DNA from: a virus
Length of the DNA stretch: 20,977 nt
IMG/VR virus record: IMGVR_UViG_3300032086_002109
Span: 1 to 20,977 of that record
Direction: 5' to 3' (one strand)
Numbering within the stretch: position 1 is the first letter of the stretch; the number at the start of each line of letters is the position of its first letter. Of this stretch, positions 929-8,982 are shown piece after piece. Made by a program: the position numbers and the translations under genes. The notes beneath the pieces were generated by a model. That model was given only the letters and a program-made list of their open reading frames with translations, searched no databases and had not been told where the DNA came from.

Positions 929-1111
929 ATGACAGATCAACCTATGTATGCTGAAAAATCAGCAGAAGAAAAGAAAGCACATGTTGCTAGTAAGACTATG
1001 TATCTAAACAAGACAACGTATGCTGACCTAATGTTTATTAAACGTTTGGTTATAAAATTAGCTGAAAATCAAAAGTTAGATATTGAGGCTATTAAAAAAG
1101 ACATATCATAA
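929..1111 (+). CDS. Hypothetical protein (60 aa)
   Basis: A 60-residue charged, mostly helical protein. ATG at 929 is chosen because AAGGAG (917-922) lies just upstream; an in-frame ATG at 890 lacks such a site and would overlap the previous gene. The N-terminal third is Lys/Glu/Ala-rich. The rest alternates hydrophobic and basic residues (about 30-58), suggesting a two-helix bundle. No family is recognised. The gene is followed by the structured leader at 1119-1160. Confidence 0.6.
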   Translation: MTDQPMYAEKSAEEKKAHVASKTMYLNKTTYADLMFIKRLVIKLAENQKLDIEAIKKDIS

Positions 1112-1118
1112 AATATGT

Positions 1119-1163
1119 GGCTAACGCCTGGTCGCTTTGGCTAGGCGTTGCCTACAGAAAGGA
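1119..1163 (+). promoter_or_regulatory. Structured leader A (hairpin plus SD)
   Basis: AACGCCT (1123-1129) pairs perfectly with AGGCGTT (1143-1149) around a 13-nt loop. An outer GGC (1119-1121) / GCC (1150-1152) clamp is separated by a bulge. AGAAAGG (1156-1162) follows, then ATG at 1168. The element at 3436-3480 has the same plan with two compensatory base-pair changes, so this is probably a conserved RNA structure acting on translation or processing. Confidence 0.65.
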
Positions 1164-1167
1164 TATT

Positions 1168-1413
1168 ATGAGAACATATGTAGTACAAACAAGTCATCAA
1201 TTTCAAAATGGTGATGAAAGAGCAGTGCATAAACATAGAGTGTCTATGCCTGATGAAGTATATAAAAAACTCCAAAAGAAATGGGGTACATCTAGATGGG
1301 CATACCATAATTGGGTAGAAAAACAATTAAAGAAACGTTTAGGATATGATAATGGTTGGTCTCTAGATAGAAATAAATATTATTATATAATATCATGCAA
1401 ATTGGAGAGTTAA
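1168..1413 (+). CDS. Hypothetical protein, possibly ribbon-helix-helix-like (81 aa)
   Basis: This 81-residue basic protein has a stretch at about residues 23-55 (HRVSMPDEVYKKLQKKWG..., then VEKQLKKRLG) that reads like a beta strand followed by two amphipathic helices. That order resembles ribbon-helix-helix DNA-binding proteins, but no diagnostic motif is present. The C-terminus is Tyr-rich (NKYYYIISCK). The start at 1168 has AGAAAGG upstream with 5-nt spacing and lies directly below leader A. A small regulator is the best guess; the function is not established. Confidence 0.6.
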   Translation: MRTYVVQTSHQFQNGDERAVHKHRVSMPDEVYKKLQKKWGTSRWAYHNWVEKQLKKRLGYDNGWSLDRNKYYYIISCKLES

Positions 1414-1414
1414 T

Positions 1415-1591
1415 ATGAAAACACCAAAAGGATTTACAGCAAAAGAGTACGCAGAACATTTGATATGGTTATCAACGTTTACTGACTGCAAGGAGGTTAA
1501 GAGTGTACCGAGTAAGAATAAAAGGAAAGTTCAAAGAAAGACCAATAAATTTAGGCAGAGCAATAAATCTAATGTTCAAGCAAAAGTTTAG
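1415..1591 (+). CDS. Hypothetical protein overlapping the next gene (58 aa)
   Basis: ATG at 1415 has GGAGAG (1404-1409) at good spacing. The first 28 residues look like a folded helical segment (YAEHLIWLSTF). The remaining 30 codons run out of frame into the following gene and give a Lys/Arg/Asn-rich tail that is probably disordered. The overlap with the 1503 gene is 89 nt. Either the tail is a tolerated read-on, or the two frames are linked by frameshifting. The first is simpler because the second gene has its own strong ribosome site. Confidence 0.5.
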   Translation: MKTPKGFTAKEYAEHLIWLSTFTDCKEVKSVPSKNKRKVQRKTNKFRQSNKSNVQAKV

Positions 1592-1805
1592 TGGGAGTAT
1601 ACAACAAGAACATATAACATGGTGGAAGCCCTATTGGATTAAATCCATTAATCTAGAAATACTAGAACCAAAACAAGGTTGGATACAACTTGTTAAAGTA
1701 TTTAGAGAGGGGAAACCATCTGTTAGAGTAGTGACTATACCAATCAGCTCCGACAAGCGAGAGCTGCTTGTTCTTAAAAATAATTATGGAGGTAACAATG
1801 GGTAA
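1503..1805 (+). CDS. Hypothetical protein, GTG start (100 aa)
   Basis: A 100-residue basic, beta-rich-looking protein (alternating VRIKGKFKERP, then GWIQLVKVFREGKPSVRVVT). The start is GTG at 1503, supported by AAGGAGG (1490-1496). The stop overlaps the start of the XRE-like gene by 8 nt. No family is recognised. The strongly basic N-terminus would suit nucleic-acid binding, but this is inference. Confidence 0.6.
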   Translation: MYRVRIKGKFKERPINLGRAINLMFKQKFSGSIQQEHITWWKPYWIKSINLEILEPKQGWIQLVKVFREGKPSVRVVTIPISSDKRELLVLKNNYGGNNG

Positions 1806-2217
1806 ATGTACTCGAACAGAACATAAAAGTAATATTAATACTAATATAGCTAAAACATTAGTATTACATAGAATATGGAATGGATATACACAAAGTAAAA
1901 TAGCAGAGTGTATACACGTAACGTTCCAACAAATTCAGAAATATGAGAAATGTATCAATAGAATACCTGCTGATCATCTTATAGATATATGTAAACAAAA
2001 ACGATGGGATATAAGTTTATTTATAAACGATCATCCTGAAATAGTATTTGGTGAATGGATAAATAATGTGGATCAAATGACAGAAGATAGTCCTTATCCA
2101 CTACGTATTGATCAAATAAATAGAGCTTGGGAAAAGATAGATAATGTAGGTAAACATAACTATTTATCTAGAGAAGTAAATCCAAGATATAAACAAATAA
2201 TGCAAGAAGGAGTATAA
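1798..2217 (+). CDS. XRE-family helix-turn-helix regulator
   Basis: A 139-residue protein with an N-terminal Cro/CI-type helix-turn-helix. Residues about 16-66 contain AKTLVLHRIWNGYTQSKIAE, then VTFQQIQKYEKCINRIPADH and a closing helix. The GYTQ...IA...V.F.QIQKYE pattern is the family signature of the recognition helix. The C-terminal half (70-139) is unrecognised and may handle dimerisation or partners. ATG 1798 is chosen because GGAGG (1788-1792) precedes it. It sits mid-operon with no visible operator beside it, so it may act elsewhere, for example on the divergent 7467/7480 region. Lack of a C-terminal peptidase domain means it is not a LexA/CI-type autocleaving repressor. Confidence 0.85.
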   Translation: MGKCTRTEHKSNINTNIAKTLVLHRIWNGYTQSKIAECIHVTFQQIQKYEKCINRIPADHLIDICKQKRWDISLFINDHPEIVFGEWINNVDQMTEDSPYPLRIDQINRAWEKIDNVGKHNYLSREVNPRYKQIMQEGV

Positions 2218-2423
2218 TGAATGGACTTTATTCTTTGGCTAGATTTCTTACTTATAGTCTCGCAGGGACTGTGGTGAGAAAAGGTTGGAATTGGCTCACT
2301 GAAGACGTTGACCCAATTCCTGGGACTAAAGAATTTGATAGTGAATACTATCAAGTTAAACAAAAATATATACGATTAACTAAGAAAAAGGAGGAATATG
2401 AAGCGTATAGAAAAAGTAGGTAA
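2217..2423 (+). CDS. Hypothetical protein (68 aa)
   Basis: ATG at 2217 overlaps the stop of the XRE-like gene by one base. The N-terminal 25 residues are moderately apolar (LARFLTYSLAGTVV) and could be membrane-associated. The middle is acidic (TEDVDPIPGTKEFD) and the tail is a Lys/Tyr/Glu helix. Unrecognised. It overlaps the following gene by 26 nt. Confidence 0.55.
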   Translation: MNGLYSLARFLTYSLAGTVVRKGWNWLTEDVDPIPGTKEFDSEYYQVKQKYIRLTKKKEEYEAYRKSR

Positions 2424-2565
2424 TATATTATTTTCAACAATAACTTACCCAGTACGATTTGTTATCGGTGCATACAAAGCTATAGATAATTATATGCCTG
2501 AACAGATTGAATTACCAATTACAATAAAAGTAAAGGAGAAGAAAAATGACAAAGCTACCAATTAA
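2398..2565 (+). CDS. Hypothetical protein (55 aa)
   Basis: ATG at 2398 follows AGGAGG inside the end of the preceding gene (2389-2394), with close spacing. The protein has an N-terminal region with mixed apolar and aromatic residues (ILFSTITYPVRFVIGAY, about 10-26) that might lie on a membrane, and a Lys-rich tail that overlaps the next gene by 20 nt. It resembles the preceding gene product in layout, an apolar N-terminus with a charged tail. No family is recognised. Confidence 0.55.
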   Translation: MKRIEKVGNILFSTITYPVRFVIGAYKAIDNYMPEQIELPITIKVKEKKNDKATN

Positions 2566-2815
2566 AGACAGAGTTGAAAAGCAAGTAATGCCGATGACTA
2601 AATGGTTTGCAGAACAATACTTTCAAACAGTAGAGCTTATGCAAAAAGATCCAAGGTTTAAGACATTACCTAATTATAATCAAACTTCATGTGTTGCAAC
2701 TGTTATCATAGCAACTAATAATGCGTTAGATAAAGTTAGATCTGCTAGAGATAAAGCTGAAGCACTAGAAGATATAAGTTCAACAATAAAAACAGATGAG
2801 GTTGTTAATGGTTAG
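2546..2815 (+). CDS. Hypothetical protein (89 aa)
   Basis: A soluble 89-residue helical protein. The start at 2546 is supported by AAAGGAG (2531-2537). It contains a short Cys-containing segment (NYNQTSCVATVIIATNNALD) followed by an Arg/Lys/Glu helix (about 63-80). It overlaps the next gene by 8 nt. No family is recognised. Confidence 0.6.
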   Translation: MTKLPIKDRVEKQVMPMTKWFAEQYFQTVELMQKDPRFKTLPNYNQTSCVATVIIATNNALDKVRSARDKAEALEDISSTIKTDEVVNG

Positions 2816-3428
2816 AGATAAAACAATAATGAGACCTATTAGAAATGTAGAGTATGATCATTGGAATTATACTATAGATGAAACATATGATGATAGAAAG
2901 TCATCTCTTAAAACAGAAATGATTGATGAGATTGACGATTTGTCAGAAGAAAACTATGGAGCATTTAAAGCTAAATTAAAATTAGATAAAGTTATGGACG
3001 ATATAGCAAAAAAGTATAAAGATTATACTGATTTTGTTAAAAACAAAAGAGCTATAGAAGAACAAAAATCTAATGATTTAACTAGAGCTATTGATCAAAT
3101 GTATGACATTTTACAAAAGTTCAATAAAGAACGTAAATGGAATACAGATGTAGAACATAGTATGTTAAAAGATCCAAAAGATCATGATATTCTTTTAAAG
3201 AAATTATGTAGAGAAGAAACAGAAAAAGCATATTATGCAGGACCAAAAGGTAGAGCATTACAAATGCTTGAAATTTCTAAAAAGAAAGCAAAACATGTTC
3301 TTAACTCTGGTTTACCTTTAGATCTAGCAGTCAAATCAATAAGTATGGAAATGTCTAGTCAAAAGATAAATTTAGATTTACCTGAAAATATGTTTAATCC
3401 TTCAATTGCACTTGAACATAAAAAGTAA
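2808..3428 (+). CDS. Hypothetical helical protein (206 aa)
   Basis: The largest protein of the small-gene cluster. ATG at 2808 is preferred over the in-frame ATG at 2796 because GAGG (2798-2801) then lies 6 nt upstream. The protein is highly charged, with long Lys/Glu/Asp helices (about residues 30-125) likely to form coiled coils, and a less charged C-terminal part with a short apolar stretch (VLNSGLPLDLAVKSISM). No catalytic motif is visible. A scaffold or protein-protein interaction role is a guess. The gene is followed by leader B. Confidence 0.6.
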   Translation: MVRDKTIMRPIRNVEYDHWNYTIDETYDDRKSSLKTEMIDEIDDLSEENYGAFKAKLKLDKVMDDIAKKYKDYTDFVKNKRAIEEQKSNDLTRAIDQMYDILQKFNKERKWNTDVEHSMLKDPKDHDILLKKLCREETEKAYYAGPKGRALQMLEISKKKAKHVLNSGLPLDLAVKSISMEMSSQKINLDLPENMFNPSIALEHKK

Positions 3429-3435
3429 ATAATAT

Positions 3436-3481
3436 GGCAAATGCCCGGCACATTGTGACTGGGCATTATGCCCAAGAAAGG
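3436..3481 (+). promoter_or_regulatory. Structured leader B (hairpin plus SD)
   Basis: AATGCCC (3440-3446) pairs with GGGCATT (3461-3467) around a 14-nt loop, clamped by GGC (3436-3438) / GCC (3470-3472) with small bulges. AGAAAGG (3475-3481) and ATG 3487 follow. Relative to leader A, C:G becomes T:A and T:A becomes C:G at two stem positions with pairing kept, which supports a selected RNA structure. Confidence 0.65.
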
Positions 3482-3486
3482 TAATT

Positions 3487-3771
3487 ATGGTAGATAAAAA
3501 TCTAATGTATTCTACAGATGATGTAGGTAAAAAAGTTTATGAAATAGAAAATGAAACTACATATGTAAGTAAATGGCAAGTAATTGCTAAAGACAAAGAC
3601 GAAGCATTTGATATTTGGTTAGCAGAACATAAACAAGAACTTAAAACTGAAGATAGTGCAGCAAGTAATTGTGTATGTACCTATGTTAAAGATTATTCAG
3701 AAATGGGTAATACTAAAGAAATTGCTAAAATTAAACATGACGAAGAACTAAACGAGGTAATTGCAGAATGA
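3487..3771 (+). CDS. Small acidic protein with A-x-D-x-D-E-A motif (94 aa)
   Basis: A 94-residue acidic protein. Residues about 18-45 (KVYEIENETTYVSKWQVIAK, then DKDEAFDIW) form two beta strands followed by an acidic turn and helix, a pattern shared with the products at 4278, 9605 and 9763. Two Cys lie at about 58 and 60. The start at 3487 follows leader B and AGAAAGG at good spacing. It overlaps the next gene by 4 nt (ATGA). Function unknown. Confidence 0.6.
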   Translation: MVDKNLMYSTDDVGKKVYEIENETTYVSKWQVIAKDKDEAFDIWLAEHKQELKTEDSAASNCVCTYVKDYSEMGNTKEIAKIKHDEELNEVIAE

Positions 3772-7180: not shown

Positions 7181-7467
7181 TTATGTATATTATAAGTTTC
7201 TATTGCAGAATCAACAAAACTCTTAAATTTAAGATTTCTGTTATATAATTGGAAAAGACGAAATACTCTATTCTTATTACAAGAATGGAGTCTAGCGATT
7301 AAGCTCTTGCTCCCATACTTACGTGTAGGGTGCAATAGCCAACAAAGAATGATAGATAAATTATAAATTTTATAATAATCACTATTCTTTATTAAAACTT
7401 TACCTTTGAGCATATCAATAGGTATGTTATAAGTAACACTAATATATTTTTGTATATCATTAACCAT
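7150..7467 (-). CDS. DnaA domain IV-like DNA-binding protein
   Basis: A 105-residue basic protein from ATG 7467. IQKYISVTYNIPIDMLKGK (residues 5-23), then a helix with LSIILCWLL, PTRKYGSKSLIARLHSCNKN and RVFRLFQLY, follow the order of the DnaA C-terminal DNA-binding domain: V..fnv....lkgk, a helix, ..s...ig..f...n.tv. The domain stands alone without an AAA+ module, as in phage initiator-like or DnaA-mimic proteins. This assignment rests on pattern only. No Shine-Dalgarno is visible. The start lies 12 bp from the divergent nuclease start, so each promoter must sit in the other gene. Replication control is the likely role. Confidence 0.5.
   Translation of the reverse strand: MVNDIQKYISVTYNIPIDMLKGKVLIKNSDYYKIYNLSIILCWLLHPTRKYGSKSLIARLHSCNKNRVFRLFQLYNRNLKFKSFVDSAIETYNIHKCVDKLKNQN
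7189..7217 (-). promoter_or_regulatory. Candidate promoter for the DUF6456-like gene
   Basis: Minus strand: TTGTTG (7212-7217) and a perfect TATAAT (7189-7194) are separated by 17 bp. The expected start of transcription falls at about 7182, two to three bases before the ATG at 7180, so the message would be leaderless or nearly so. No Shine-Dalgarno is seen, which fits. Confidence 0.45.
7406..7433 (+). promoter_or_regulatory. Candidate promoter for the nuclease-SSB operon
   Basis: Plus strand: TTGAGC (7406-7411), 16 bp, then an extended -10 (TGT-TATAAG, 7425-7433). It would start transcription near 7440, about 40 nt before the ATG at 7480. It lies inside the opposing DnaA-like gene. Confidence 0.4.
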
Positions 7468-8760: not shown

Positions 8761-8788
8761 ATTTCCTTATCTCTCTTAGTTAGGAAAT
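8761..8788 (+). terminator. Hairpin after the SSB-like gene
   Basis: ATTTCCT (8761-8767) pairs perfectly with AGGAAAT (8782-8788) around a 14-nt loop, three bases after the stop. There is no T-tract, so it may be a processing or mRNA-stability element rather than a strong terminator. A second possible stem, CTGGGTAG (8790-8797) / CTGCCCAG (8828-8835), would place the next start codon beside its 3' arm. Confidence 0.4.
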
Positions 8789-8823
8789 GCTGGGTAGTCT
8801 AATGAATAGCTCTTTGGATTGAT

Positions 8824-8982
8824 ATGGCTGCCCAGTGTAAACTTTGTAATAAAAATGCAGTTATTATTGAAAATAAAATTTATTATTGTGCTACTTGTTA
8901 TGTCAATAAGTTTGTTAAGTTGCACAAAAGATTATCAATTAAACCCTTGGACAACAGTATTAAATCAATTAATAAAGGTTAA
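8824..8982 (+). CDS. Zinc-ribbon mini-protein (52 aa)
   Basis: A 52-residue protein with C5-x2-C8 and C22-x2-C25 (AAQCKLCNK ... YYCATCYV), spaced like a four-cysteine zinc ribbon, then a basic helix (KFVKLHKRLSIK). Small phage zinc ribbons bind nucleic acid or host RNA polymerase/ribosome components; which applies here is unknown. The start lies within a possible long-range stem. A different frame over the same bases (about 8855-9004) mimics a lipoprotein, discussed under rejected items. It ends 2 nt before the next gene. Confidence 0.65.
   Translation: MAAQCKLCNKNAVIIENKIYYCATCYVNKFVKLHKRLSIKPLDNSIKSINKG

Follow-up and report, generated by a model that had tools for sequence, protein, structure and literature searches.

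The question raised by this locus is what two strong hairpins, A and B, do in the early operon of a phage, and whether they serve the gene in front of them or the gene behind. The window, a 20,977-base IMG/VR virus record, is from an uncultivated marine phage. Small genes forming an early operon open its + strand, and hairpins A and B are located in two of the gaps between them, as follows.

929..1111 (+): A60, a 60-aa early gene (ORF), the TAA stop of which (1109-1111) precedes hairpin A
1119..1152 (+): hairpin A, 7 nt past the A60 stop, with a 3-bp clamp, a bulged T and an upper stem of 7-11 bp (GGC 1119-1121, bulge T, AACGCCT 1123-1129, AGGCGTT 1143-1149, GCC 1150-1152)
1156..1162 (+): Shine-Dalgarno AGAAAGG after A, outside the stem, serving the next gene (ATG 1168)
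1168..1413 (+): downstream gene of A (ORF), 81 aa, with other genes in its place in relatives
2546..2815 (+): C90, an 89-aa gene, overlapping the start of B205 in the window
2811..3428 (+): B205, a 205-aa gene (ORF), the TAA stop of which (3426-3428) precedes hairpin B
3436..3472 (+): hairpin B, 7 nt past the B205 stop (GGC 3436-3438, A, AATGCCC 3440-3446, GGGCATT 3461-3467, AT, GCC 3470-3472)
3475..3481 (+): Shine-Dalgarno AGAAAGG after B, outside the stem, serving the gene after B (ATG 3487)
3487..3771 (+): downstream gene of B (ORF), 94 aa, with other genes in its place in relatives

No match was obtained for A60 by PHROG and Pfam searches, for B205 by PHROG search, or for the 1069-aa protein in the phage collection. 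Isolates were reached through the terminase and the capsid of a relative (L116), for which the nearest isolate was Pelagibacter phage HTVC106P (terminase 50.5%, capsid 54.9%); a SAR11-like host is only a lead, the terminase and capsid genes being those of L116 and not in the window. The single match among genome contigs was a contig binned as Flavobacteriales, which does not fix the host.

Several other elements of the window were recorded. A palindromic CCCTATTTGCACTATCGACATGACTGTCGATGTTGCAGGGG at 31-71, close to the left end, is present in several relatives. The non-coding stretch ahead of the first early gene (300-465), with repeated TTGAT/TGATT motifs and AGAAAGGATAATATG at its end, is conserved in many relatives and looks like a promoter/operator region; the early leader at 300-470 was also considered as a structured RNA and rejected, the DNA being conserved but without a consensus fold. 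At 7302-7340, an inverted repeat (GGCTATTGCACCCTAC...GTATGGGAGCAAGAGCT), both arms of which are kept in relatives, lies within a - strand ORF with a DnaA-like stretch (SLIARLH). The gene MDLILLNDG is preceded in relatives by a strong hairpin and AGAAAG (L085:6348-6378, L119:10321-10351, L134:2665-2695); the counterpart of this hairpin in the window (8786-8836) has arms GCTGGGTAG and CTGCCCAG about 35 nt apart, the second of which is overlain by the start of a small gene (8824-8982).

On re-reading of the sequence, the coordinates, letters and common layout of A and B given by the first-pass annotation were exact, and both of its double changes (C1125:G1147 vs T3442:A3465 and T1129:A1143 vs C3446:G3461) are present. 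Much of the loop drawn as 13-14 nt pairs further in the minimum-energy fold. The folding energies were -25.1 kcal/mol (z -4.2) and -22.8 kcal/mol (z -3.2) for hairpins A and B, respectively. When both strands of the window were scanned, A (-24.4) and B (-22.8 kcal/mol) were the two strongest 42-nt folds, the best 42-nt fold in 12 dinucleotide shuffles of the + strand being -20.2 kcal/mol. The Shine-Dalgarno downstream of each hairpin is predicted by folding to be left unpaired.

Relatives were scanned for AGAAAGG-ATG with a strong fold upstream, by which clear hairpin homologs with different stem sequences were obtained. A covariance model (R1) was built from hairpins A and B plus six relatives, and the search of relatives that had been proposed as a check gave matches at E <= 0.1 in 22 of 42 related IMG/VR whole records. 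Two or three copies were found in several of these records, and the weakest matches may have arisen by chance. For 22 hairpins, the stem arms were aligned manually into a table, which therefore leans towards structure (bulges had been misplaced in MAFFT alignments); standard pairs were found in 212 of 220 stem cells (shuffled mean 176.9, maximum 188), which are not independent events since many of the contigs are close relatives. Eight of the 10 pairs were changed on both sides in the same table, and the loops were not conserved. This result agrees with the MAFFT-only alignment of ten A orthologs (A6), in which 91.3% of cells were paired with 5 double-change pairs, neither the paired percentage nor the covariation score was reached in any of 500 shuffles, and pairing fell below 48% when the partner was shifted by 1-3 columns. 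By these compensatory changes, the view that A and B represent an RNA structure kept by selection across dozens of relatives is supported, and the earlier claim of a selected structure occurring more than once per genome stands; B may plausibly have arisen by a true duplication of A. No Rfam match was obtained at gathering score for the window and 11 relatives, and a permissive Rfam search of the leader region gave only weak matches far below the cut-off, mostly to eukaryotic small RNAs. The isolates HTVC106P, Venkman, HTVC010P and HTVC024P are without the early hairpins, the one model match in HTVC106P being weak and only 19 nt long.

The gene to which the hairpins are tied was determined from the homologs of the flanking genes. 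A hairpin of -15 to -26 kcal/mol is located a few bases past the stop in all 18 distinct A60 homologs, which are followed by many different downstream genes and, in several cases, by no start at all within 130 nt. Among 32 distinct B205 homologs from a wider search, a strong fold past the stop was found in 31; in the sole exception (L180), a type Y block (see below) lies directly past the stop and the hairpin follows that block on the same contig (L152). As a control, 287 further stops of these loci were assessed, of which only 6 reached -14 kcal/mol: hairpin A and five hairpins lying immediately ahead of B205. No hairpin follows C90 when it overlaps B205 (the arrangement in the window), the hairpin being placed after B205 instead, whereas most C90 homologs followed by a gap carry their own post-stop hairpin directly. 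Across 43 hairpins, the gap from stop to hairpin was 7.7 +/- 2.3 nt (very constant, 4-10 nt in most cases), compared with 27.9 +/- 17.5 nt from hairpin to start. The downstream gene, the spacer length and the Shine-Dalgarno motif vary among relatives, the last being absent or moved in some. In L140, the A60 of which is 98% identical to that of the window, a structured RNA of about 255 nt is interposed between hairpin A and CAGAAAGGATAATATG. The AGAAAGG-ATG module, which had been included in the common plan, is present after A and B but also occurs at 451-465 of the window without a strong hairpin. Since the upstream gene is fixed while the downstream gene, spacer and Shine-Dalgarno vary, the apparent leader plan is best explained as a short gap plus the common Shine-Dalgarno motif of the group. 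Judged from this comparison of sequences, hairpins A and B belong to the end of the preceding gene and are not start signals of the following one.

The same post-stop position was found on the capsid side, where hairpins in relatives are located behind the major capsid gene and the one following it (MRTLNDYF...), and likewise in the isolate HTVC106P.

L116:4701-4739(-): capsid-side hairpin
L116:4252-4289(-): capsid-side hairpin
L136:29264-29287(-): capsid-side hairpin
L136:28806-28836(-): capsid-side hairpin

In some relatives, the post-stop hairpins are adjoined by undescribed structured RNAs. Type X (236-297 nt) lies within about 10 nt behind hairpin A in 11 contigs (several of them near-duplicates), and does so even behind hairpins of entirely different sequence. 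Type X is closed by a stem (AUAUAUAUCUC/GAGAUAUAUAU) and has conserved stretches (UGACUGAAKAAUC and UAAGGUA). RNAalifold predicted 29 pairs on a nine-sequence alignment, among them a long-range GGUUAAC/GUUAACC helix; 15 of the 29 show double changes, and single folds of two stretches holding type X (hairpin A included) gave z values of -4.4 and -5.2. No match was found in Rfam or in the phage collection for type X, a previously undescribed covarying RNA. Type Y (73-77 nt, GAGTTAGATATRATGGTCTAATGTATYATAACAA...CATAGTYATATCCTACTC) has two helices, three pairs of which are changed on both sides across five sequences, and gave no match in a permissive Rfam search. The type Z block (about 90 nt, ATGAATATGTGGTTTGTT...CACYTACAGATAAAAATGGT...GTATTCA) is shared by four contigs, in which it separates the next gene from hairpin A or X, and its single fold was no better than shuffles. 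The permissive Rfam search of the X, Y and Z blocks gave nothing, no tRNA fits the non-coding islands, and in the window none of the three is present downstream of hairpins A and B.

Type X: L153:1308-1573(-), L161:1244-1508(-), L162:1484-1740(+), L164:7479-7714(+), L160:4380-4633(+), L158:3325-3621(+), L147:2391-2679(-)
Type Y: L148, L149, L150 and L151, after hairpin A; L147 and L152, directly after the stop codon and before the hairpin
Type Z: L153, L154, L155 and L156

A possible though doubtful reading is that a modular island of non-coding RNA (X, or the smaller Y or Z) has the post-stop hairpin as its constant 5' border or as its processing signal, the island having been lost or never gained behind hairpin A of the window.

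Two further readings concern translation. The first-pass annotation had taken A and B as a duplicated leader controlling translation of the downstream gene, as would fit the layout common to A, B and several relatives, in which AGAAAGG and ATG follow at a constant distance, and the hairpin found in front of all seven homologs of the gene after B. These homologs, however, sit behind a B205 homolog in the cases read, and across A60 homologs the hairpin stays with the same upstream family while the downstream gene and its Shine-Dalgarno change, AGAAAGG lying about 255 nt from hairpin A in L140. A translational leader or operator was rejected as a class: the element is not kept with the downstream gene and its Shine-Dalgarno, and there is neither a conserved protein-binding loop nor a Shine-Dalgarno paired in the stem. 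Control of the downstream gene by such a leader has accordingly very little probability left. It is rather unlikely that the hairpins are translational insulators, by which a stem just behind the terminating ribosome would stop sliding to the next start or keep upstream sequence off the next Shine-Dalgarno; the hairpin base close to the stop and the unpaired Shine-Dalgarno agree with this, but several relatives have no start within 130 nt, or a non-coding RNA of about 255 nt next, and so no start to insulate.

The fate of the transcript is the subject of the others. A partial transcription terminator (attenuator) reducing expression of the following genes would be in keeping with a GC-rich stem right behind the stop in an AT-rich genome. 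It is very unlikely, as the 9 nt past the stem hold a mean of 2 T (T 23% vs 34% in the window; at least 5 T in three of the counted hairpins), canonical hairpin-plus-U terminators are found elsewhere in relatives at the ends of non-coding islands (L158, L147), and the next start is often less than 20 nt off; with T depleted directly past the stem, an intrinsic terminator was also rejected. A processing role, which had been suggested for A and B, is possible. As a specific form of it, an endonuclease site (RNase III or similar) would split the operon into separate units, in the manner of T7 early mRNA, or free the non-coding RNAs behind hairpin A. Phage T7 has RNase III processing sites between cistrons. 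Hairpins A and B also sit between cistrons, and hairpin A is directly ahead of a structured RNA in the 11 contigs with type X, but the stems are only 10-15 bp long and bulged, which is at the lower end of the range for RNase III, and such a site is unlikely.

The best reading is that A and B are stem-loops of the malE-malF/puf kind, located between cistrons and serving as 3' protection or as insulation. That the hairpin protects the upstream mRNA is regarded as the best explanation from the lack of a U-tract, the open Shine-Dalgarno, the unconserved loop, the hairpins of the capsid genes and the precedent in E. coli, and is held at about even confidence. In the mRNA, each hairpin would form about 8 nt past the stop codon of its own early gene, whether a gene or a non-coding RNA follows. 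An endonuclease would cut the polycistronic transcript further downstream, and the hairpin would then block 3'-to-5' exonucleases, so that the upstream cistron would retain a protected 3' end and reach a higher steady-state level, with the downstream Shine-Dalgarno remaining in open RNA. The stable hairpin directly behind the stop of the upstream cistron is as expected of such stem-loops. The closeness of the hairpins to the stops could come from compact gene packing alone, and a role connected with the terminating ribosome would likewise agree with the rather uniform gap. The retention of RNA hairpins in constant positions downstream of certain early genes and of the capsid gene in small uncultivated marine phages gives a clear comparative prediction, by which differential mRNA decay in phage operons can be tested.

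Among known systems, the T7 RNase III sites are similar in that they are hairpins between early phage genes; the stems of A and B are shorter, and cleavage here is putative. Rho-independent terminators share the GC-rich hairpin after the stop codon but have the U-tract that A and B lack. The translational operator of T4/RB69 gene 43, like A and B, is a phage mRNA hairpin upstream of a start codon, but its conserved loop is bound by its protein (PMC3014915), whereas the loops of A and B vary and the element goes with the upstream gene. In E. coli operons, stable hairpins without a uridine tract are found at the 3' ends of stabilised upstream cistrons, and also in malE-malF (PMC5927463). Hairpins A and B are like those of malE-malF, Rhodobacter puf and E. 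coli differential decay (PMC5927463) in being stable, located between co-transcribed genes, without a uridine tract, associated with the upstream gene and kept in relatives; they differ in occurring in a phage, in the very constant gap of mostly 4-10 nt to the stop, and in that protection here is a proposed role.
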